Below the pieces are notes generated by a model that made no database searches, was not told the DNA's origin, and was given only the letters and a program-made list of their open reading frames with translations. A stretch of DNA of 61,835 bases from a virus. The stretch is taken from the IMG/VR virus record IMGVR_UViG_3300044638_003544, positions 1 to 61,835 of that record; one strand, 5' to 3'. Shown piece by piece: positions 53,611 through 61,835 of the stretch. The stretch's first letter is position 1; the number at the start of each line of letters is the position of its first letter. Made by a program: the position numbers and the translations under genes.

Positions 53611-54045
53611 TTACTTTCGTTTTCTACCTTCTTCGAAATTTGTAATTTCAATTGTTTTAGGCTTTTTGTGTTCGGGAATGTTTTTCACGACACAAACATA
53701 TAGAATACCATCTGTAATATCAGCACATTCTACTTCCATGTGCTCAGCTAGGGAGAATGTTCTTGTGAACTTACGCCCTGCAATTCCTTTGTGGATGTAT
53801 TCATCATTTGTCTCTGGAAGTTCTCCAGTTACTGTCAAACAGCAATCCTCTTCAGTAAGAGTTAGATTTGACTTGTTATATCCAGCTACTGCCAATTCAA
53901 TGACAAATTTATCATCACCGATTTTTCTAACGTTGTATGGAGGAAAGCTAGTTGCATTTGTTTTTGCTAGAGTTTCTAGCTTTGGAAAAAAGCTTTCCCA
54001 TCCGATCATATATGGGTCAGTAGCCCACGTTGTTGTATATTTCAT
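53611..54045 (-). CDS. Hsp20 / alpha-crystallin small heat shock protein
   Basis: 144 residues, ATP-independent holdase. Alpha-crystallin domain with FVIELAVAGYNKSNLTLTEE, YIHKGIAGRKFTRTFSL and the C-terminal I-x-I motif (KTIEIT). The extra N-terminal region begins TTWATDPYMIGWESFFPKL, an IbpA-like start. Phage Hsp20s, known from cyanophages, may protect proteins during infection or virion assembly. Own promoter at 54102-54131. Confidence 0.9.
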   Translation of the reverse strand: MKYTTTWATDPYMIGWESFFPKLETLAKTNATSFPPYNVRKIGDDKFVIELAVAGYNKSNLTLTEEDCCLTVTGELPETNDEYIHKGIAGRKFTRTFSLAEHMEVECADITDGILYVCVVKNIPEHKKPKTIEITNFEEGRKRK

Positions 54046-54979: not shown

Positions 54980-55002
54980 TTGTCAGACCCCTATGCTAGG
55001 CT
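54980..55002 (+). promoter_or_regulatory. PafBC/RecA-NDp-like promoter 1
   Basis: TTGTCAGACC then TAGGCT (54997-55002). Distance from the first T to the -10 is 17 bases, the RecA-NDp geometry. Leads to the gene at 55032. Confidence 0.8.
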
Positions 55003-55031
55003 GTAAGCATAGATAAAGAAAGGGGTTCAAA

Positions 55032-55163
55032 ATGAACTTACTAAATGAAACAGAATTCATCTGTTGCTTTTGTGAAAGCGAAATGGATTCAGAGCAGGTG
55101 TTCTGCTGTGATACCTATAAAGGTAAAATGACCGTTCAAGAGTTTAACGAATTCTACGGATAA
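55032..55163 (+). CDS. Small Cys-rich protein
   Basis: 43 residues, ribosome site AAAGGGG. Cysteines: CCFC at 11-14 and CC at 25-26, a compact zinc-binding arrangement in a small acidic protein (MTVQEFNEFYG end). First gene of the early region. Function unknown. Confidence 0.65.
   Translation: MNLLNETEFICCFCESEMDSEQVFCCDTYKGKMTVQEFNEFYG
55068..55089 (+). promoter_or_regulatory. PafBC/RecA-NDp-like promoter 2
   Basis: Located inside the previous gene's last codons region is not the case: the motif copy for the next gene is at 55168-55189 (TGTCAGACC at 55168-55176, TAGTAT at 55184-55189). This entry marks no separate site; see the entry at 55168. Confidence 0.05.
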
Positions 55164-55167
55164 AAAC

Positions 55168-55189
55168 TGTCAGACCTCTCTGATAGTAT
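55168..55189 (+). promoter_or_regulatory. PafBC/RecA-NDp-like promoter 2
   Basis: TGTCAGACC (55168-55176) and TAGTAT (55184-55189), five bases after the previous stop. Leads to the genes at 55223 and 55409. Confidence 0.8.
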
Positions 55190-55222
55190 CAACTTAACAA
55201 ACAAAAGAAAGGTAGTCACCAA

Positions 55223-55408
55223 ATGACTTACACTGTAACAAATAAGAGAGATAACATCTCCAATGAATACATCTCTATTCATTCCGCCTTGCAAATGGTT
55301 GCAAGTTGCTATGACGGTGCAGGAATTACCTGCGAGGTTGTCAATAACGAAACAGGCGAACAGGTAGAACTGTATCGCAATCCCCTAACAGGTTGGAGAG
55401 TGGCTTAA
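55223..55408 (+). CDS. Small early protein, unknown
   Basis: 61 residues, ribosome site AAAGG. MTYTVTNKRDNISNEYISIH, a helix with VASCYDG, and LYRNPLTGWRVA end. Beta-alpha-beta look. Followed without gap (TAA then ATG) by the next gene. Not recognised. Confidence 0.65.
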   Translation: MTYTVTNKRDNISNEYISIHSALQMVASCYDGAGITCEVVNNETGEQVELYRNPLTGWRVA

Positions 55409-55558
55409 ATGGCTTACACTAAAATAAAGAATGCACGACTCTTACTAGATGCCGTCAATGGCTTAGAGTTGATGCTAAAGCACGACCCAGAAAATCAGAG
55501 AATGATTAACTACTACAATACCCAAATCCAAATCTTGACTAGGCGTGTCTACAAATAA
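55409..55558 (+). CDS. Small early helical protein
   Basis: 49 residues, immediately after the previous stop. A long helix (ARLLLDAVNGLELMLKHD) and a second one ending NTQIQILTRRVYK. Coupled translation; not recognised. Confidence 0.6.
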   Translation: MAYTKIKNARLLLDAVNGLELMLKHDPENQRMINYYNTQIQILTRRVYK

Positions 55559-55560
55559 AA

Positions 55561-55583
55561 TTGTCAGACCCCTATGATAAAGT
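55561..55583 (+). promoter_or_regulatory. PafBC/RecA-NDp-like promoter 3
   Basis: TTGTCAGACC (55561-55570) and TAAAGT (55578-55583). Leads to the five-gene string 55615-56230. Confidence 0.8.
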
Positions 55584-55614
55584 GAAACTAACAAACAAAC
55601 GAAAGGTTGCCACA

Positions 55615-55830
55615 ATGACAACACTAAACACTAAAGATTACATCAAAGCCCACGATGCATTGGGTTGGATTCAATACCCAAACTCCTATGACAATCGCCT
55701 AGCGTATCTATCACTAGCAACGATTTTAGAAATCTGCATCAACAAGAAAATGGGTATCAACCAAATTCAAGAAATGCTAGATGAAATGACCAAAGGCGAA
55801 CAAGCCGTACTAGAAAGTTTGATGAAATAA
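55615..55830 (+). CDS. Small early protein, unknown
   Basis: 71 residues from ATG 55615 with GAAAGG upstream. A longer frame from 55561 would start inside the promoter and is rejected. Helical protein (DYIKAHDALGWIQYP, LATILEICINKKMGINQIQE). First of five tightly packed genes. Function unknown. Confidence 0.7.
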   Translation: MTTLNTKDYIKAHDALGWIQYPNSYDNRLAYLSLATILEICINKKMGINQIQEMLDEMTKGEQAVLESLMK

Positions 55831-55832
55831 TG

Positions 55833-55997
55833 ATGACAAGAAAAGACTATGTAGCCGTTGCAGAAATTCTAAACGCTTACCACCTAGACATTGAAACACA
55901 AACGTTTGAGGATTTGCTTTCAGACTTTCAAACATTTTTCAAAAGAGATAATTCAAACTTCGACCTAACACGATTCAGAGATGCGGTAATCAAATAA
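55833..55997 (+). CDS. Small conserved phage protein
   Basis: 54 residues. TRKDYVAVAEILNAY, then DLLSDFQTFFKRDNSNFD and a LTRFRDAVIK end: a three-helix pattern that I recognise from many actinophages (RKxYv...a..L, F...NxnFD...F..a). Its function is unknown. Spaced two bases from the previous stop and sharing one with the next start. Confidence 0.7.
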   Translation: MTRKDYVAVAEILNAYHLDIETQTFEDLLSDFQTFFKRDNSNFDLTRFRDAVIK

Positions 55998-56149
55998 TGA
56001 AATTCGTACACAATAAAATTGACGGAACTTTCGTAATTGGAATTAGTTTCTCAAATTACTACAGTAAAAAACTAGGTAGAAAAAATACCTCGTTAATTTT
56101 TGATCTTGGTTCTCATTCGTTTGCATTTGTGTTGAGAGGTGAATACTAA
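55997..56149 (+). CDS. Small early protein, unknown
   Basis: 50 residues, TAATG overlap with the previous gene. Beta-rich: KFVHNKIDGTFVIGISFS, then SLIFDLGSHSFAFVLRGEY. Probably a single small sheet. Not recognised. Confidence 0.6.
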   Translation: MKFVHNKIDGTFVIGISFSNYYSKKLGRKNTSLIFDLGSHSFAFVLRGEY

Positions 56150-56230
56150 ATGAATAGTTTTTATTCTTGGGTTTTAATTTTATCCCTTGCAGGTTTAGTT
56201 TATTTGCTTGTAGATAAATTTACAGACTAA
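56150..56230 (+). CDS. 26-residue membrane peptide
   Basis: A single hydrophobic helix (WVLILSLAGLVYLLV) and a charged tail (DKFTD). ATG directly follows the previous TAA. Last gene before a hairpin terminator. Membrane-targeted micropeptide of unknown role. Confidence 0.5.
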   Translation: MNSFYSWVLILSLAGLVYLLVDKFTD

Positions 56231-56243
56231 AAAAAACAAAAGC

Positions 56244-56279
56244 TTCTGGGCGTGTCGTTTGACATTCCCAGAAATTTTT
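56244..56279 (+). terminator. Rho-independent terminator
   Basis: TTCTGGG / CCCAGAA outer stem with an inner near-complementary GTGTC/GACAT, then ATTTTTG. Ends the transcript of promoter 3. Confidence 0.75.
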
Positions 56280-56289
56280 GCCCGCCCCG

Positions 56290-56352
56290 TTTTCCACAGG
56301 TTATCCACAGCTGTTAAGAACTTGTGTATAAGTCACTGAAATCTGTGGATTA
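56290..56352. promoter_or_regulatory. DnaA-box cluster 2
   Basis: TTTTCCACA (+, 56290-56298), TTATCCACA (+, 56301-56309), TTATACACA (-, 56323-56331) and TAATCCACA (-, 56344-56352): three agree with TTWTNCACA and one has a mismatch. CCCGCCCC precedes them. Confidence 0.75.
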
Positions 56353-56398
56353 TTGTTTACCTATTGTTCATCTTAGACACGCCTCTAGATACCAAAAA

Positions 56399-56420
56399 TG
56401 TCAGACCCCTATGCTAAAGT
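56399..56420 (+). promoter_or_regulatory. PafBC/RecA-NDp-like promoter 4
   Basis: TGTCAGACC (56399-56407) and TAAAGT (56415-56420). It is separated from its gene (56518) by a structured leader of about 90 bases. Confidence 0.8.
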
Positions 56421-56437
56421 GAAACTATAAATAAATA

Positions 56438-56497
56438 GTTAAGTATGAGCCTAGCAAATAATCCTACCTACGGTGAGCCTAGCAAATAAGACTTAAC
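56438..56497 (+). repeat. Structured leader with direct repeats and a short upstream frame
   Basis: Direct repeats TGAGCCTAGCAAATA at 56446-56460 and 56474-56488, enclosed by GTTAAGT (56438) and ACTTAAC (56491), which are inverted copies. An ATG at 56445 opens a 14-codon frame (MSLANNPTYGEPSK) that spans both repeats and stops at 56489. Confidence 0.6.
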
Positions 56498-56517
56498 ACT
56501 AACGAAAGGAATACAAA

Positions 56518-56703
56518 ATGTATTCACTAGAAGTAGCAAGTCTTCTGATTGGTCAGAAGTACCGTTCAAGCCGTGGATTCTGCGGTGAAATAGTCATGGC
56601 TGAAAAGCGTGAAGACATGATGAGCGATAACGCTTATCTAATCTATGTCCGTCAAGACGGATTCCCTTACTACTGGTATTCAACTGTTGAGGTGGTTGCA
56701 TAA
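56518..56703 (+). CDS. Small early protein, unknown
   Basis: 61 residues, ribosome site AAAGGA. Mixed sequence with MYSLEVASLLIGQKYRSSRG and a C-terminal FPYYWYSTVEVVA. Its stop overlaps the IF-2-like gene (TAATG), so the two are co-translated. Small beta protein, unknown function. Confidence 0.65.
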   Translation: MYSLEVASLLIGQKYRSSRGFCGEIVMAEKREDMMSDNAYLIYVRQDGFPYYWYSTVEVVA

Positions 56704-56894
56704 TGAGAGTCTATGAAATTGCTAAAGAATTAAACATTCCGTCAAAAGATGTCAGAATGTATTTAGAATACATTGGGCAACCCGTCAAGAGTGCATCGTC
56801 AAGCGTTGAAGATGTATTTGGTGAAATTGTTATCAAAAGGATAAACAAGACCTACGAGGAATTTGTGCCTTGTTGGTCATTCCCACCATTCTAA
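56703..56894 (+). CDS. Free-standing IF-2 N-terminal-domain protein
   Basis: 63 residues. Almost the whole protein aligns by eye with the small N-terminal domain (IF2_N) of translation initiation factor IF-2: RVYEIAKELNIPSKDVRMYL, GQPVKSASSSVED. The VKSASS(S/T)VE element is specifically like actinobacterial IF-2. The GTPase and other domains are absent. In IF-2 this domain helps bind the ribosome. The free copy may compete with, mimic, or modulate host initiation; that is inference. It ends in an aromatic tail (CWSFPPF). Confidence 0.8.
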   Translation: MRVYEIAKELNIPSKDVRMYLEYIGQPVKSASSSVEDVFGEIVIKRINKTYEEFVPCWSFPPF

Positions 56895-56898
56895 GCGG

Positions 56899-56930
56899 TT
56901 ATCCACAGGTTATCCCAAGCCTGTGGACGA
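56899..56930. promoter_or_regulatory. DnaA-box cluster 3
   Basis: TTATCCACA (+, 56899-56907), a degenerate TTATCCCAA (56910-56918) and TCGTCCACA (-, 56922-56930), just after the IF-2-like gene. Confidence 0.6.
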
Positions 56931-56953
56931 CACGCCGCCCCTTTTTCCTAGCT

Positions 56954-56961
56954 TTGTCAAG
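56954..56961 (+). repeat. TTGTCAAG cassette element
   Basis: Copy 2 of five TTTGTCAAG elements, 49 bp before promoter 5. No -10 at usual distance. Confidence 0.5.
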
Positions 56962-57002
56962 TTACGACACTATTAAAAACAACACCAAAAAATTCACTAA
57001 AA

Positions 57003-57025
57003 TTGTCAGACCCCTATGCTATGCT
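57003..57025 (+). promoter_or_regulatory. PafBC/RecA-NDp-like promoter 5
   Basis: TTGTCAGACC (57003-57012) and TATGCT (57020-57025). Leads to the genes at 57056 and 57295. Confidence 0.8.
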
Positions 57026-57055
57026 GAAGGCATACCTACTACGAAAGGAACATTC

Positions 57056-57295
57056 ATGTTCACTTTGCATAACCCAATGAAAGTTATGAACGAACGCTAT
57101 GTCGTTACATCACACCCCTGCCCTACTTGCAGTGAAGAAAAAACAGTATCTATTTCTTCTGACCAATTATTTGCATACCGCCAAGGTGGATTAGCCCAAA
57201 CAGTATTGTCTGACTATGATGCAGATGTTCGTGAGCGTTTCATTACAGGTATCTGTGGTGTTTGTTGGGATTCAATGTTTGGAGATGATGTGTAA
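57056..57295 (+). CDS. Small zinc-ribbon early protein
   Basis: 79 residues from ATG 57056 after AAAGGAA; an upstream frame from 56870 covers the promoter and is rejected. CPTCSEE at about residue 22 and CGVCWD near residue 68 form a zinc ribbon. Translated with the following gene (TAATG). Unknown role. Confidence 0.7.
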   Translation: MFTLHNPMKVMNERYVVTSHPCPTCSEEKTVSISSDQLFAYRQGGLAQTVLSDYDADVRERFITGICGVCWDSMFGDDV

Positions 57296-58017
57296 TGACT
57301 AAGTTAAAGCGTTCAAAAGATCGTAAGGTTGCTAACCTTGTTACGCCTAATGGCAAACAAGCCTCTATTGCTAACACGTTTGGATTACCTGCAGGTAAAG
57401 CATTCTCTTGCCCTGGTGCTACATCGGTATGCGAGAAGATATGCTATGCAGGTAAACTTGAAAAAGTATTCAAGGGTACTCGTGAGAACTTATTGCACAA
57501 TTGGAATTTGCTTAAGGATGCATCGCAAGATGAGATGTATCTATTAGTTTCAGAAATGATTGCAGAATTCAATGCTGATTGCGAAAGACGTGATGCAGAA
57601 AAGTTGTTCCGTATCCATTGGGACGGTGACTTCTTTAATGAAGATTACACACTAGCATGGAAACGTGTAATTGCTGACTACCCCGAAATTAAATTCTGGG
57701 CTTATACTCGTGTGTCAGAGTCTGCATTAATTCTAAAAGACATTGAAAACCTATCTCTATACTTCTCAACCGATTCAGAGAATGTAGAAACTGGTAAGAC
57801 GTTAGCAAAAGATGAAGGCATAAAGTTAGCGTACCTATCTCAGACATTTGCAATTGGTAAAGCAGAACTAAAAGAAATTATTGGTAAGTCTGGTGTGCCA
57901 TGCCCTGAGAATAATAAAAAGATACCGCTAATTTCTACTAACGGCAGTGCTTGTGTATCGTGTGGGCAATGCGTATTTGCCAGGAATAACATTGTATTCA
58001 GTGCAAGTAAGTCATAA
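57295..58017 (+). CDS. GP88-like phage protein with cysteine clusters
   Basis: 240 residues. Actinophage family resembling 'gene product 88': CPGATSVCEKICYAGK (C39, C46, C50), FRIHWDGDFFNEDY, FWAYTRV. The C-terminal half has CPENN (C203) and CVSCGQC (C220, C223, C226). Two Cys clusters could bind metal or an iron-sulfur cluster. The function is not established; the WDGDFF and YTRV elements look like a catalytic core. Confidence 0.8.
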   Translation: MTKLKRSKDRKVANLVTPNGKQASIANTFGLPAGKAFSCPGATSVCEKICYAGKLEKVFKGTRENLLHNWNLLKDASQDEMYLLVSEMIAEFNADCERRDAEKLFRIHWDGDFFNEDYTLAWKRVIADYPEIKFWAYTRVSESALILKDIENLSLYFSTDSENVETGKTLAKDEGIKLAYLSQTFAIGKAELKEIIGKSGVPCPENNKKIPLISTNGSACVSCGQCVFARNNIVFSASKS

Positions 58018-58029
58018 AGCTTGACAAAG

Positions 58030-58055
58030 CCACCGAAAGGTGGTCGGGCACTTTT
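58030..58055 (+). terminator. Hairpin after GP88-like gene
   Basis: CCACC-GAAA-GGTGG, a GNRA-type tetraloop hairpin, then GGGCACTTTTT a few bases on. Likely weak terminator. Confidence 0.6.
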
Positions 58056-58063
58056 TCCTGTGT

Positions 58064-58071
58064 TTGTCAAG
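58064..58071 (+). repeat. TTGTCAAG cassette element
   Basis: Copy 3, 46 bp before promoter 6. Confidence 0.5.
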
Positions 58072-58109
58072 TTAAGAAAATTAAGAGAAAGTCACTGAAA
58101 ACACTGAAA

Positions 58110-58132
58110 TTGTCAGACCCTTGTGGTAGGTT
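58110..58132 (+). promoter_or_regulatory. PafBC/RecA-NDp-like promoter 6
   Basis: TTGTCAGACC (58110-58119) and TAGGTT (58127-58132). The downstream ATG at 58139 lies at the predicted start of transcription, so the mRNA is probably leaderless. Confidence 0.8.
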
Positions 58133-58138
58133 ATACCT

Positions 58139-58273
58139 ATGATGAAATTTACTACAACCCCAGAACAACTTCGAGCAAGGCTTGAGTTGCGTAGGAGTAA
58201 TGCAGCAGTAAAGCATCGTAACAAAAAGAAATACACACGAAAGACAAAACACAAAAACCTACAGGGAGAATAA
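58139..58273 (+). CDS. Small basic protein, leaderless
   Basis: 44 residues, very basic (KHRNKKKYTRKTKHKN) with an N-terminal helix (TPEQLRARLELRRSNAAV). The ATG lies seven bases after the -10, with no ribosome site, which indicates a leaderless message; leaderless genes are common in actinobacteria. Probably binds nucleic acid. A second ATG follows directly. Confidence 0.6.
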   Translation: MMKFTTTPEQLRARLELRRSNAAVKHRNKKKYTRKTKHKNLQGE

Positions 58274-58274
58274 A

Positions 58275-58559
58275 ATGGGACTTAACTTTGCAACAGAGTT
58301 ATCCACTATGGATACTATGCCAATTGAAGCACAGATCAACACACACTTACAATACAATTTCTATCCACCTGTACCATCCTCAATGGTACAGCCTTGCGTT
58401 GAAGCAATTGATGCTTATCTAGAAGAAGACTTTGATCGCCAAATTGAAATGCCACAAGGAGTATCTTATCGTGGCAGTGACTATGCACCTGCACACGCTA
58501 TTGTTGAGCAACATCGCTTGGGACCTTGGTGTGAGCCAATTGATTGGGATGAGGAATAA
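58275..58559 (+). CDS. Small early protein, unknown
   Basis: 94 residues; ribosome site GGGAG lies in the end of the previous gene. Proline-rich middle (YPPVPSSMVQPC), two Cys, acidic end (CEPIDWDEE). Not recognised. Confidence 0.65.
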   Translation: MGLNFATELSTMDTMPIEAQINTHLQYNFYPPVPSSMVQPCVEAIDAYLEEDFDRQIEMPQGVSYRGSDYAPAHAIVEQHRLGPWCEPIDWDEE

Positions 58560-58561
58560 AA

Positions 58562-58583
58562 TGTCAGACCCTTGTGCTAAGAT
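58562..58583 (+). promoter_or_regulatory. PafBC/RecA-NDp-like promoter 7
   Basis: TGTCAGACC (58562-58570) and TAAGAT (58578-58583), starting two bases after the previous stop. Confidence 0.8.
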
Positions 58584-58608
58584 AAATCTAACCTACTAAG
58601 GAGAACGA

Positions 58609-58725
58609 ATGAGTGAACTACTAATAAACCTATTTGAGGGTGTAATAGATGAAAAGGCGATTGAGAAATTGTCTACCGAAGAATTAGAAGCAATTAACAA
58701 AATGCTAACGGAAGCAGGTTACTAA
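58609..58725 (+). CDS. 38-residue helical protein
   Basis: AAGGAG ribosome site. Two helices (SELLINLFEGVIDEKAIEKL, EELEAINKMLTEAGY). The end (EELEAINKML) resembles small early proteins of actinophages. Function unknown. Confidence 0.6.
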   Translation: MSELLINLFEGVIDEKAIEKLSTEELEAINKMLTEAGY

Positions 58726-58726
58726 A

Positions 58727-59065
58727 ATGGGTGCAAGAATTAATTTTGTATTTGATGATGGTACAGATAGTCTAGTTAATCTTTATTCCCATTGGGGTGA
58801 GTCTGATTGGGAAAATGATTTAATAGGTGCATTAGTACACGCACAGAAACGCAAGGGTGACTATTCATACTTTACCCGTATGGTTATCTCACACTTAATT
58901 AAAGACTATGTATTAGATGAAACTGGTTTTGGTATCTATGCAATTAGCCGTTCAGAAATTGGTAACAATTTTGATAAGACAGTTGTATTAGATTTAGTAA
59001 ATAACACATTGACAGATTTAGATAATGATAGTACAGTTGAATTGTATGGAAAGGTATTTGCATAA
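58727..59065 (+). CDS. Small early protein, unknown
   Basis: 112 residues: GARINFVFDDGTDSLVNLYS, HWGESDWENDLIGALVHAQK, IYAISRSEIGNNFDKTVVLD. The combination of an F-x-F-D-D-G start and HWG motif recurs in small phage proteins of unknown role. TAATG overlap with the next gene. Confidence 0.65.
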   Translation: MGARINFVFDDGTDSLVNLYSHWGESDWENDLIGALVHAQKRKGDYSYFTRMVISHLIKDYVLDETGFGIYAISRSEIGNNFDKTVVLDLVNNTLTDLDNDSTVELYGKVFA

Positions 59066-59214
59066 TGAGTCAAATGAAAGATTTATACGGTATTTTAACA
59101 GAGTGGTATCCAGATGGAAACTACACAGAAGAACAATTGTGGGAAGCAATTGCAGAATCACAAGGTATGGACTATGCAGAAATTGCAGACGGAGATTTAG
59201 CAGAATGGCTCTAG
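59065..59214 (+). CDS. Small acidic protein
   Basis: 49 residues. SQMKDLYGILTEWYPDGNYT, then EEQLWEAIAESQGMDYAEIA: acidic and helical. Shares bases with both neighbours. Unknown function. Confidence 0.6.
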   Translation: MSQMKDLYGILTEWYPDGNYTEEQLWEAIAESQGMDYAEIADGDLAEWL

Positions 59215-59312
59215 CACTAGCATTTACCGCAGGAATATTTGCAGGTATCATAATCGTAGGAATTGTTCTAAACCTAACCATACTAAAACAAGATGATTGG
59301 TACAAGAGATGA
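59205..59312 (+). CDS. Small membrane protein
   Basis: 35 residues, overlapping the previous gene by 10 bases. One hydrophobic helix (LAFTAGIFAGIIIVGIVLNL) with a charged end (KQDDWYKR). Unknown. Confidence 0.5.
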   Translation: MALALAFTAGIFAGIIIVGIVLNLTILKQDDWYKR

Positions 59313-59431
59313 AACTATTTAATCGTAAGCAAGAAATGTCAGACCCATACGCTATACTAGACAAGTTGATGTCAGAAATGGCATCAAATAAAACATACAT
59401 TGAATACCTGCGCCTAAGAGAAAGTGTATAG
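59309..59431 (+). CDS. Small protein whose frame contains a promoter motif
   Basis: 40 residues. Residues 10-17 (MSDPYAIL) are encoded by promoter 8 itself. The rest is helical (LMSEMASNKTYIEYLRLRES). Overlaps the previous stop by four bases (ATGA). Unknown. Confidence 0.55.
   Translation: MKLFNRKQEMSDPYAILDKLMSEMASNKTYIEYLRLRESV
59337..59358 (+). promoter_or_regulatory. PafBC/RecA-NDp-like promoter 8, intragenic
   Basis: TGTCAGACC (59338-59346) and TATACT (59353-59358), inside the gene at 59309. Could drive the TTG gene at 59432 and the one at 59547. Confidence 0.6.
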
Positions 59432-59563
59432 TTGGAAATCTTTTTATTTATTGTAATTGTGTTATTCTTATTTGGAGTCTTATCTGCCAATGGTATTGGT
59501 GAGGGAGACCCAAAACATACTCACGAAGACAAGGGAGAAAATTTTGATGATTACAGACTATAA
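59432..59563 (+). CDS. Small membrane protein with TTG start
   Basis: 43 residues starting at TTG directly after the previous TAG. A hydrophobic helix (EIFLFIVIVLFLFGVLSA) and an acidic His/Asp-rich tail. Only a weak purine-rich ribosome site. Moderately supported. Confidence 0.45.
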   Translation: MEIFLFIVIVLFLFGVLSANGIGEGDPKHTHEDKGENFDDYRL

Positions 59564-59762
59564 AGAAATAGATAGACTGGTTGGAATGACAATTGAGCCT
59601 GGCGATATGGTAAAGCTTCCCAACAATGATATTGTTACCATTACTCGCACAGAGCCAACGCAAGATGGATATGATTTATTCTTCTTAGATTTATTTGAAG
59701 ATGATGAGTTGTGCTATTCTCTATCCGATGATGATTGTGTATCACTTCTTCAGTTTGACTGA
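59547..59762 (+). CDS. Small early protein, unknown
   Basis: 71 residues from ATG 59547 with AAGGGAG upstream, overlapping the previous gene. Beta-barrel-like start (IEPGDMVKLPNNDIVTITRT) and acidic end (LFEDDELCYSLSDDDCVSLL). Small SH3-like or OB-like domain possible. Not recognised. Confidence 0.65.
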   Translation: MITDYKEIDRLVGMTIEPGDMVKLPNNDIVTITRTEPTQDGYDLFFLDLFEDDELCYSLSDDDCVSLLQFD

Positions 59763-59789
59763 GGAAGTGCCCGCCCCAATTTTAAAGCT

Positions 59790-59822
59790 TTGTCAAGTCT
59801 TACGAATGTGATTAGGATCACA
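59790..59822 (+). promoter_or_regulatory. Canonical promoter with CRP-type box, copy 2
   Basis: TTGTCA (59790-59795), 17-bp spacer, TAGGAT (59813-59818), and TGTGA-N6-TCACA (59807-59822) over the -10. Sixty bp upstream of promoter 9, the same layout as copy 1. Confidence 0.65.
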
Positions 59823-59849
59823 CTGAAATTATCACGGAAACCTAATAAA

Positions 59850-59872
59850 TTGTCAGACCCGTATGCTAAGAT
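59850..59872 (+). promoter_or_regulatory. PafBC/RecA-NDp-like promoter 9
   Basis: TTGTCAGACC (59850-59859) and TAAGAT (59867-59872). Leads to the gene at 59907. Confidence 0.8.
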
Positions 59873-59906
59873 GTTACCATAACAACAACAAAGAAAAGAG
59901 AAGCAA

Positions 59907-60062
59907 ATGGATAAAATCCAAACACCAACTGTTGGCTCACAGTTCACAACTGCTAAGTCAGGCGTAACTGGCACAGTTCAGGAAATCATCAAGAATCAGA
60001 ATGGTACTTTGCGTATCAAACTTGATGTAAACGGTCAAGACCGTTGGACTACTGTTAAGTAG
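59907..60062 (+). CDS. Small conserved phage protein
   Basis: 51 residues. SQFTTAKSGVTGTVQEIIKN then RIKLDVNGQDRWTTVK, a single small beta barrel that I recognise as widespread in actinophages. Its role is unknown. Followed by a strong hairpin. Single-gene transcript. Confidence 0.7.
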   Translation: MDKIQTPTVGSQFTTAKSGVTGTVQEIIKNQNGTLRIKLDVNGQDRWTTVK

Positions 60063-60074
60063 TTAAATAAGTTT

Positions 60075-60107
60075 AGGTGGGGTGTTCCTTACCCTTGCAC
60101 CCCACCT
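60075..60107 (+). terminator. Strong GC-rich hairpin
   Basis: AGGTGGGGTG / CACCCCACCT, perfect 10-bp stem and 13-base loop, between the previous gene and promoter 10. No long T-run, but very stable; transcription barrier or RNA-end hairpin. Confidence 0.7.
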
Positions 60108-60113
60108 TAAAAC

Positions 60114-60135
60114 TGTCAGACCTCTCTGCTAAGAT
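60114..60135 (+). promoter_or_regulatory. PafBC/RecA-NDp-like promoter 10
   Basis: TGTCAGACC (60114-60122) and TAAGAT (60130-60135). Leads to 60166 and perhaps the tRNA. Confidence 0.8.
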
Positions 60136-60165
60136 AAACTTACCTACAAAAGAAAGAAGAAAACT

Positions 60166-60642
60166 ATGGGACTAGATATGTACCTTCGTGCAAGCGAATA
60201 CGTTTACCGTCACAACTTTAATCGTCAAACTGATGAAGACACGATTAACCCAATCTTTAATGAGATTGTTAAGAATCTTGAATTAGAAGATGTAATTGAC
60301 AGTTCTGGCTTTGCTGGAATTACTGTTGATGTACCAATGGGCTACTGGCGTAAGTCAAATATGATTCATCATTGGTTTGTAAATAACTTAGCAGATGGTG
60401 TTGATGAATGTCAGCCAATCATTGTTCGTAGAGAAGATTTAGAGCAGTTGAAAGAAACCTGCATTGAAGTAATTGCTAATCCAGAATCAGCAGAAGAATT
60501 ATTACCAACAGGTAGTGGATTCTTCTTTGGCTCTACTGACTATGATGAATATTACTTTGGAGATTTGAATGATACTTTAGGCATTATCACTAGATGCCTT
60601 GAAAGTAAATTCGACTATTTTGAGTATCAAGCCTCTTGGTAG
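60166..60642 (+). CDS. Conserved phage protein of the MGLDMYL family
   Basis: 158 residues. Starts GLDMYLRASEYVYRHN, a hallmark of a family found in many phages and plasmids, with unknown function; also VPMGYWRKSNMIHHWFVNNL. The middle has a Trp/His-rich helix. Single gene before the tRNA. No enzymatic motif known. Confidence 0.75.
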   Translation: MGLDMYLRASEYVYRHNFNRQTDEDTINPIFNEIVKNLELEDVIDSSGFAGITVDVPMGYWRKSNMIHHWFVNNLADGVDECQPIIVRREDLEQLKETCIEVIANPESAEELLPTGSGFFFGSTDYDEYYFGDLNDTLGIITRCLESKFDYFEYQASW

Positions 60643-60737
60643 TAGGTTACATCCGAAACCAAAACCTGCCACAGCCACGCAGGTAAAATAAAGGGGACAG
60701 TCCTAAGCACCATACTCAGACTATAAACTGCTTACCT

Positions 60738-60811
60738 GGTCTGTTAGCTCAATTGGTTAGAGCACTACCCTGTCACGGTAGAGGTTGTGGGTTCAAGTCC
60801 CATACAGATCG
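60738..60811 (+). tRNA. tRNA-Asp (anticodon GUC)
   Basis: All stems pair: acceptor GGTCTGT/ACAGATC (one G-T), D-stem GCTC/GAGC, anticodon stem CTACC/GGTAG with loop CTGTCAC (anticodon GTC, Asp), T-stem GTGGG/CCCAT. Discriminator G, no encoded CCA. The 95 bases before it hold no gene but contain a CCTGC/GCAGG hairpin (near 60674) and no clear tRNA promoter. Confidence 0.92.
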
Positions 60812-60840
60812 CAAAAAGGTGCCCGCCCAATTTTCAAGAT

Positions 60841-60848
60841 TTGTCAAG
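60841..60848 (+). repeat. TTGTCAAG cassette element
   Basis: Copy 5, 48 bp before promoter 11; preceded by GTGCCCGCCC at the tRNA 3' side. Confidence 0.5.
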
Positions 60849-60889
60849 CTTTAAGACATTACTACAAGGTCACGGGAATCACTGAAAAA

Positions 60890-60911
60890 TGTCACACCTC
60901 TGTGGTATGAT
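60890..60911 (+). promoter_or_regulatory. PafBC/RecA-NDp-like promoter 11
   Basis: TGTCACACC (60890-60898), a one-base variant, and TATGAT (60906-60911). Leads to 60942. Confidence 0.7.
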
Positions 60912-60941
60912 TTCATCATAACCTACTAGAAAGAAGTTAAA

Positions 60942-61709
60942 ATGCCAAACTGGGTATTCAATTCACTTGTTGTATCAGGTGAGCAATCAGAATTAGATAA
61001 GATGGTTGAGCAATTAAATCAACCGTTCACTATGCACCATCCTGTTCATAAATTTGTTGATGGCAAATACACACAGGTTGCTGACTTTGAAGAATACAAT
61101 AATCCTGTCTTTGCTTTTTGGAACATTGTAAAACCAACAGACCTTAAATCATACTATGAAAAAGAAGTCTTTACTAAGAAGCAACTTGATGGTGAAGAAT
61201 TTATGGCAGAGTTTGTTCGCTCTATGAGAGAAGACCAAGACTGGTATCACTGGAACTGCCGTAACTGGGGAACTAAGTGGGACGTAGCAGTGTCTAATGA
61301 CAATGAGTATCCTAACACTATTAAAACAGTTAATGATGATGGTTCTATCTTGTACCAGTTTGAAACCGCTTGGTCTCCTGTTGGTGAGGCTCTACTAAAA
61401 CTATCAGAACAGTACCCAACTCTTGAGTTTGACTATGAGTATGAGGAAGAGCAAGGATGGGGTGGTAGTTGCACATTCTTGGGTGGAGAAGAGACTCGCT
61501 CTGATGAGTATGACATTCCAATGTCTCACGCTGACTACAAGGATAGAGATAAAGAATGTATCTGTGAGTACGGAGACCCTGAAAACGGGTATGAAGATTG
61601 CCCTGTGGATACCACTAAATTCAAGTGGGATTCAGAACTAGAGGAATGGGTAGAATTGTCAGACCTCTCTGATACACTAGTTTCAACAAACAACCTACAA
61701 GGAGAATAA
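60942..61709 (+). CDS. YubB/DUF1281-like ferredoxin-fold protein
   Basis: 255 residues. PNWVFNSLVVSGEQSELDKM at the start, NWGTKWDVAVSND in the middle, FETAWSPVGEALLKLSEQYP later: the signature order of the API92/YubB family. The function is unknown; in plasmids it lies near establishment genes. The last 20 residues (LSDLSDTLVSTNNLQ) are coded by promoter 12 sequence, so the C-terminus is dispensable in sequence terms. Confidence 0.8.
   Translation: MPNWVFNSLVVSGEQSELDKMVEQLNQPFTMHHPVHKFVDGKYTQVADFEEYNNPVFAFWNIVKPTDLKSYYEKEVFTKKQLDGEEFMAEFVRSMREDQDWYHWNCRNWGTKWDVAVSNDNEYPNTIKTVNDDGSILYQFETAWSPVGEALLKLSEQYPTLEFDYEYEEEQGWGGSCTFLGGEETRSDEYDIPMSHADYKDRDKECICEYGDPENGYEDCPVDTTKFKWDSELEEWVELSDLSDTLVSTNNLQGE
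61657..61678 (+). promoter_or_regulatory. PafBC/RecA-NDp-like promoter 12, intragenic
   Basis: TGTCAGACC (61657-61665) and TACACT (61673-61678), within the last codons of the preceding gene. Drives the gene at 61712. Confidence 0.75.
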
Positions 61710-61711
61710 AC

Positions 61712-61835
61712 GTGGAATTCACAACAAGTGAGCCAACATTCGGAATACCAGCAACTATAACACCAATGACAGACCAAGTGGCAGTAACACCAGCGTATGA
61801 CCCAAAGGCAACTATCTTAGTACGCAAGGGCTACT
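61712..61835 (+). CDS. GTG-started gene, cut at right edge
   Basis: AAGGAG lies seven bases before GTG 61712. Open to the window end, 41 codons: EFTTSEPTFGIPATITPMTD, then DPKATILVRKGY. Family not recognised; probably another early protein. Partial. Confidence 0.65.
   Translation, partial: MEFTTSEPTFGIPATITPMTDQVAVTPAYDPKATILVRKGY

Follow-up and report, generated by a model that had tools for sequence, protein, structure and literature searches.

Phages that place their genes under a DNA-damage regulator of the host are known from CTX-phi, coliphage 186 and GIL01, which use host LexA, and a replaced -35 contact is known from the middle promoters of phage T4, where MotA and AsiA take over this role. 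For the actinobacterial activator PafBC (RecA-NDp), the motif passages of the literature give the Mycobacterium tuberculosis sequence as TGTCGG, TGTCAG or TGTCAC, a gap of ten bases and then TA-N3-T (PMC8151990), three forms stated there without a GTG requirement, and an older version as tTGTCRgtg-8nt-TannnT (PMC5656591). The parts of further reports drawn on here describe PafB as gripping the -26 motif, PafC as gripping sigma domain 4 and single-stranded DNA (ssDNA) as activating the pair (PMC11804915), and mention that the M. smegmatis motif was missed by an initial search in Streptomyces venezuelae (PMC9380542). Here, we describe twelve promoters of this build in a virus record of IMG/VR (IMGVR_UViG_3300044638_003544; 61,835 bases, guanine plus cytosine (G+C) content 36.9%), the whole of which is referred to as the window. 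The virus probably uses the DNA-damage activator of its host, because these promoters are built like those of actinobacterial repair genes, and from sequence comparison we put the probability that host PafBC drives the twelve sites at roughly three in four.

With mycobacterial PafBC promoters, the window sites share the TGTCRG/TGTCAC core, the ten-base spacer (N10), TA-N3-T and the absence of a -35 element, whereas they differ in forming a phage array that drives small uncharacterised genes, in boxes ending in ACC and in an extended -10. A host DNA-damage regulator would control phage genes here as in the LexA-using phages, but LexA represses, whereas PafBC would activate, with many promoters of one module sharing this control. 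As with MotA/AsiA in T4, a factor near -30 would capture sigma domain 4, except that here the factor would be the host's. The array puts a known promoter type to a new use; among the papers listed on PafBC or RecA-NDp and phages (mostly non-subscription literature), none evidently dealt with phage promoters carrying this box.

Anatomy of the promoter array

Head, tail and replication genes occupy the - strand of the window, and the + strand carries a run of small genes that begins at about 55 kb and extends to the window's end (Table 1). The window has 12 copies of the word TGTCASACC, every one on the + strand (54981-61665), compared to a mean of 0.73 and a maximum of 3 in shuffles. In 12 of 12 cases it is followed after exactly 7 bases by TAnnnT, for which the shuffle expectation is 0.01, while an 8-base gap is found in no case in the window. 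Hence, the central observation of an earlier note on this DNA, twelve promoters combining TGTCA(G/C)ACC with a TAnnnT at fixed distance, is confirmed. Written as TGTC(AG/AC)-N10-TAnnnT, the + strand has 12 promoters between 54981 and 61678, 11 with a TGTCAG core and one, at 60890, with TGTCAC, and all 12 fit the forms in the motif passage of PMC8151990 with respect to core, N10 and TA-N3-T. The resemblance to PafBC promoters proposed in the note is corroborated as well, with spacing, missing -35 and core letters agreeing with the motifs as excerpted from PMC8151990 and PMC5656591. Its count of 17 bases from the first T to the -10 needs correction: the spacing is indeed constant, but the count starts from the base before TGTCA, and only six of the twelve sites have a T there (A in 4, C in 2); the full TTGTCAGAC-N8-TAnnnT form is present in 6 copies in the window. 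The GTG that follows TGTCR in the older consensus occurs at none of the 12 window sites.

Between 54901 and 61835, a correctly placed -10 lies behind 12 of 17 TGTC(AG/GG/AC) words, TAnnnT having a random-position frequency of 0.0196, and in the other 54.9 kb of the window the corresponding values are 0 of 19 (+) and 1 of 17 (-). A -35 hexamer is not recognisable, as at most four of the six TTGACA letters are present at any of the 12 sites with spacers of 15-19 bases. The -10 is extended by a TG one base upstream in 11 of 12 sites (CG at 59337), a pyrimidine-A pair occupies the expected start in 11 of 12, and behind every -10 an open reading frame (ORF) of at least 30 codons begins within 100 bases, mostly after about 30. 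A second repeat, TTTGTCAAG, has six copies in the window (1.34 expected), and its five + copies sit 48-62 bases upstream of the box promoters at 54981, 57004, 58111, 59851 and 60890. By eye, two of these + copies could serve as -35 elements, as a TAnnnT stands 17 bases further on.

The box in related phages

Pattern scans of IMG/VR found the AANTGTCAGACCNNTNTGNTANNNT pattern in at least 120 stretches, compared to 2 with one spacer base more, and again in at least 120 when TGTCAGTGG replaced TGTCAGACC. Among 201 viral sequences (the window and L001-L200), a -10 at the exact spacing follows TGTCAGACC in 446 of 464 cases, a count that is inflated because L001-L120 were selected by the ACC pattern. 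For the box forms not used in this selection, the values are 106 of 110 (TGTCAGTGG), 63 of 66 (TGTCAGTCC), 54 of 54 (TGTCAGTGC) and 38 of 48 (TGTCGGTGG), and six scrambled control words yielded none with a -10 at this distance. The end of the box varies across the related phages (ACC, TGG, TCC, TGC) while the spacing is constant. Sites with similar flanks carry differing boxes in 266 ACC/TGG and 155 ACC/TCC combinations, counted as site pairs and not as independent events. One relative, G004, bears ACC, TGG, TCC and CCC boxes in a single phage, and the GTG form is also present in relatives, where it is interchangeable with the other box ends. In a logo of 880 sites from 121 sequences (the window and L001-L120), in which the search pattern itself prescribed TGTCRG, conservation is seen in the box, the extended -10 (G 84%) and an A at +1 (74%), and positions -40 to -33 hold no more than 0.11 bit. 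Secondary spacing peaks at gaps of 5, 15 and 16 are probably shadows, spacer letters such as CCTATGC containing TATGCT and second -10-like words lying downstream.

The constant distance also bears on a reading of the boxes as operators of a phage repressor that overlap promoters, like the stoperators of cluster A mycobacteriophages, each a 13-base asymmetric site containing TGTCAAG; these are scattered, many of them away from promoters. The window resembles this system in its repeated asymmetric TGTCA-type sites, in the TTTGTCAAG repeat and in a Gp88-family gene (PF17338), a family present in many Mycobacterium phages, which we take to belong to cluster A, as well as in large Streptomyces phages. 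However, all but 18 of the 464 TGTCAGACC boxes have their -10 at one fixed distance, and the lack of a -35 points to a promoter that requires assistance and not one that has to be blocked, so that control by a repressor appears very improbable.

The spread of the array was followed in 22 portal relatives, the longer contigs among 80, which were picked by portal protein and length and not by the motif. An array of at least six sites is present in 11 of the 22, and the remainder, mostly fragments of 22-43 kb, have 0-2 sites; in the 80 portal-gene loci L121-L200, no ACC promoters were found. Two records, G859 and G860, show the same series of sites as the window, plus two more boxes past the window's end. 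The array belongs to a large group of phages; two published isolates of 39 kb with their relatives represent a separate group (PMC10202952).

Some individual sites may be mentioned. In L033, which comes from a 48-kb contig (G+C 0.51), a stretch of 13.3 kb carries 27 box promoters, many of them spaced by about 190 bases, and each of its first 14 promoters lies upstream of a 35-52-codon ORF, several of them probably leaderless. A near-identical lone site, TGTCAGGGG(C/T)TTCTGCTATA(A/C)T, occurs in four records (G013:64752, G626:58033, G627:58952, G860:52757), array-less phage records among them. At G858:11301 and G861:19284, an identical box TGTCGGTGGGGTGTGTTAGGTT faces the other way from the array, being placed on the other strand just past the array's first promoter, which suggests a conserved divergent gene.

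Putative PafBC and the box in host-like genomes

The host of the window's phage probably belongs to the water-dwelling (freshwater) actinobacteria. As host-like genomes, ten small, rhodopsin-bearing actinobacterial genomes of low G+C (0.41-0.48 around the rhodopsin gene) were used, presumably members of Candidatus (Ca.) Nanopelagicales. The rhodopsin marker is found in 45 of 396 genomes of the phylum, 30 of the loci having a G+C of 0.49-0.76, and in 34 of 246 genomes of the class, including the small ones used. The motif itself was discarded as a guide to the host: as a finder of host-like genomes, the low-GC motif matched 84 of the 396 phylum genomes, mostly with one or two matches, and the strict ACC pattern gave 8 scattered matches in GTDB genome contigs, 2 of them actinobacterial, so that the phage-style ACC motif is rare in chromosomes.

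The earlier note had proposed looking for the motif near host recA and repair genes, and in the host-like genomes it is indeed there. A box, TGTCAGTGG or TGTCAGTGC, lies upstream of recA in four genomes together with a near-copy of the palindrome described below, the recA check covering four of the ten and one recA being Pfam-checked. Moreover, nine DUF6504-dnaE2-like cassettes, fetched because of their box match, come from 8 of the ten genomes (G600 and G583 being outside) and from one further genome. In G462, the Pfam families of the cassette are a DUF6504 protein followed by a PHP-domain DnaE2-like polymerase; dnaE2-like is our reading of the PHP domain and the neighbour gene. In 9 of the 9 fetched cassettes, the -10 is at a constant position and the palindrome TCGAAC-N4-GTTCGA, which we take to be SOS-type, is placed directly behind. 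A box before recA and a dnaE2-like cassette with such a palindrome behind it are features shared with mycobacterial PafBC promoters. The box end at this one promoter is TCC (G495, G566, G618, G432), CCC (G609, G486), TAG (G511), ACC (G462) or TGG (G532). Box ends swap at one host damage promoter, and ACC does not mark an element of its own. The suggestion of the note that GAC versus GTG could be phage- or host-specific is therefore not upheld, as both occur in one phage and are exchanged at phage promoters with similar flanks and at the host damage promoter.

A tandem pair of WYL proteins is encoded in 10 of 10 host-like genomes, each of which also has a third, weak WYL match in a frame about 735 residues long. 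Typing covers one pair of the ten, that of G600, which matches the solved PafBC (PafB 2e-33, PafC 1e-26), its second WYL protein also matching HTH_PafC (5e-28), and in which the PafB stretch RMFERDK-ELR-LGI is nearly identical. Going by this one typed pair, PafBC would be the only WYL candidate in the host-like genomes, the weak third match aside. Of the two activators considered in the earlier note, host PafBC or a WYL relative, the former is supported. A WYL protein of the phage's own is not: none of 22 phage records (48-115 kb, possibly incomplete, the window's record not among them) gave a WYL match above the cut-off, with one sub-threshold frame containing stops. Likewise, no WYL, WhiB or sigma factor was over the cut-off among the 39 window ORFs scanned against Pfam, a subset of all its ORFs.

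These searches speak against a different phage-encoded activator too, one that would act like T4 MotA by sigma appropriation and whose likeness to the PafBC box would be convergence or mimicry. Own factors are common among phages, most of the small module genes match no known family (Pfam, PHROGs), and at 56703-56894 the box-driven module encodes a protein of 63 amino acids (aa) in which Pfam detects an IF2_N domain (4e-9) and, weakly, Sigma70_r3. Nevertheless, the range of box variants in the phages equals that at the host damage promoter, which a separate phage factor need not copy, and we consider an activator of the phage unlikely.

As a positive control for PafBC-type regulation, two high-GC actinobacteria were scanned, giving 144 and 80 loose matches versus 34 and 27 for the control. 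From 20 canonical-box regions picked in these genomes, the 10 readable proteins were scanned, namely UvrB, PolA, PolIV, RecG, a DEDD/UvrC-type exonuclease, Mfd, DnaX, RadA, a GyrB/ParE-type subunit and an SNF2-type helicase. Besides, a family of 57-72-residue proteins starting with M(I/V/K)(I/V)(N/D)C is found behind a TGTCAGTG box (L381, L382, L385, L392, L409, L273), in one high-GC actinobacterium as well as in five of the host-like genomes. Two members were scanned and gave no Pfam match; the family is an uncharacterised candidate damage gene.

Proposed control of the array by host PafBC

For the steps beyond promoter anatomy, we argue from the mycobacterial system, and the window's host, binding by PafBC, the ssDNA trigger and early timing are given here as we infer them. 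Entry of phage DNA, its replication or breakdown of host DNA would supply ssDNA, which would bind and thereby activate the host's PafB-PafC pair. Docked on the TGTCRG box near -26, PafBC would then capture domain 4 of the housekeeping sigma factor (sigma A). This bridge would stand in for the absent -35 and join sigma A to the extended -10 (sigma adaptation), and the host RNA polymerase would transcribe the phage module gene by gene. From gene content and layout, the module behind the array is presumably one of early genes; it may be early, or middle if the ssDNA derives from phage replication.

Several observations weigh against this control. An extended -10 could work without an activator, and the twelve sites could be promoters of the housekeeping polymerase alone, the -26 box merely lifting basal activity via contacts with sigma or polymerase; TG precedes the -10 in 11 of 12 window sites and in most of the 880. 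We regard this as quite improbable, since such sites are few in the host-like chromosomes and include recA and the dnaE2-like cassette, and since the phage Samisti12 has its -10 with -35-like words and not with this box. Samisti12 (Stanwilliamsviridae, Streptomyces) is a distant relative with a related head protease and with small genes at the right end, many of which have their own promoter-like stretch. For the head protease of the window, the nearest annotated phages are large Streptomyces phages, with 45% identity over 65%. By eye, the -10 TAGACT occurs in 12 of 20 upstream stretches of Samisti12 along with the -35-like words, and only two loose box matches were found in 49.9 of its 133.7 kb. 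Going by this single genome, the wider group does not share the box. Even among the 22 portal relatives, half are without the array, long ones with 1-2 matches included (G013, 93 kb; G626, 86 kb; G627, 61 kb), and in G013 a word count upstream of TGnTAnnnT yields no clear alternative element. Furthermore, the repair genes typical of a PafBC regulon are missing downstream, no known one being found behind the window promoters in Pfam and PHROGs scans of the module ORFs.

On the host side, the link is weak, a portal relative being present in 1 of 251 genomes of the presumed order (57% identity, on a 4.9-kb contig). The loose pattern is unenriched in the ten host-like genomes (104 versus 116 in the control), and therefore the host regulon would be small or blurred, resting on gene identity rather than on counts. 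Among 30 TGTCRGTG sites fetched from host-like genomes, 4 lie before recA, 1 before a dnaE2-like cassette and most others before unassigned or other genes; three precede a LysM-type gene read by eye as a lexA neighbour, one piece being without a Pfam match. In 121 genomes of the order, the ACC form is mildly enriched (24 versus 11 in the control), with 10 of these 24 sites falling within one repeated element without a clear gene and four more sharing its upstream stretch. A reading of the ACC sites of one high-GC genome as a damage regulon found no support, because their 20 regions are not mainly located before repair genes: by eye, a RecB-like nuclease, an HNH-like gene and a WYL regulator could be recognised once each, the rest being other or unclear, and the longest-ORF rule used for these regions often chose wrong frames. 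The repeated element reads TGTCAGACC(C/A)(C/A)ATCCCTA(A/C)TAT plus a conserved stretch (L536, L541, L545, L547-L549, L553, L555, with a diverged copy in L546), recurs in several host-like genomes and may represent a small RNA or a mobile element.

Should host PafBC indeed drive the array, a factor so far familiar from bacterial DNA repair would also be a main transcription factor of viruses, ssDNA could set phage timing, in lakes the expression of viral genes would be tied to genotoxic stress of the host, and bacteria could become resistant to phages by losing pafBC. The more far-reaching proposal is that the damage response, set off by the phage's own DNA, is the main infection switch in a widespread phage group, probably of abundant freshwater actinobacteria, with a dozen or more promoters under ssDNA-sensing PafBC; infection would then rely on this host response rather than be harmed by it. 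This proposal is tentative, and we give it somewhat less than even odds. The phage group provides hundreds of natural promoter variants showing which box letters matter, the last three being tolerant at orthologous places, and these variants could sharpen motif searches in other actinobacteria.

Table 1. Positions of the promoters and associated features in the window.
Feature	Position	Strand	Remarks
Small-gene module behind promoter array	54981-61835	+	window end falls inside module
Promoter 1	54981-55002	+	box TGTCAGACC (about -28 to -20), extended -10 TAGGCT, no -35
Promoter 2	55168-55189	+	upstream of 61-aa ORF at 55223
Promoter 3	55562-55583	+	upstream of 71-aa ORF at 55615
Promoter 4	56399-56420	+	upstream of 61-aa ORF at 56518, long leader
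Promoter 5	57004-57025	+	upstream of 79-aa ORF at 57056 and Gp88-family ORF at 57295
Promoter 6	58111-58132	+	message possibly leaderless, because ATG at 58139 coincides with expected start site
Promoter 7	58562-58583	+	upstream of 38-codon ORF at 58609
Promoter 8	59337-59358	+	weakest: CG for TG before -10, no pyrimidine-A start
Promoter 9	59851-59872	+	upstream of 51-codon ORF at 59907
Promoter 10	60114-60135	+	upstream of 158-aa ORF at 60166
Promoter 11	60890-60911	+	TGTCAC core; upstream of 255-aa ORF at 60942
Promoter 12	61657-61678	+	within 3' end of preceding ORF; upstream of ORF at 61712 running off window
Gp88-family gene (PF17338)	57295-58017	+	Pfam
TTTGTCAAG copies	54919, 56953, 58063, 59789, 60840	+
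TTTGTCAAG copy	58020-58028	-

Close to the array, the window also encodes an HSP20 small heat-shock protein on the - strand (53611-54045).

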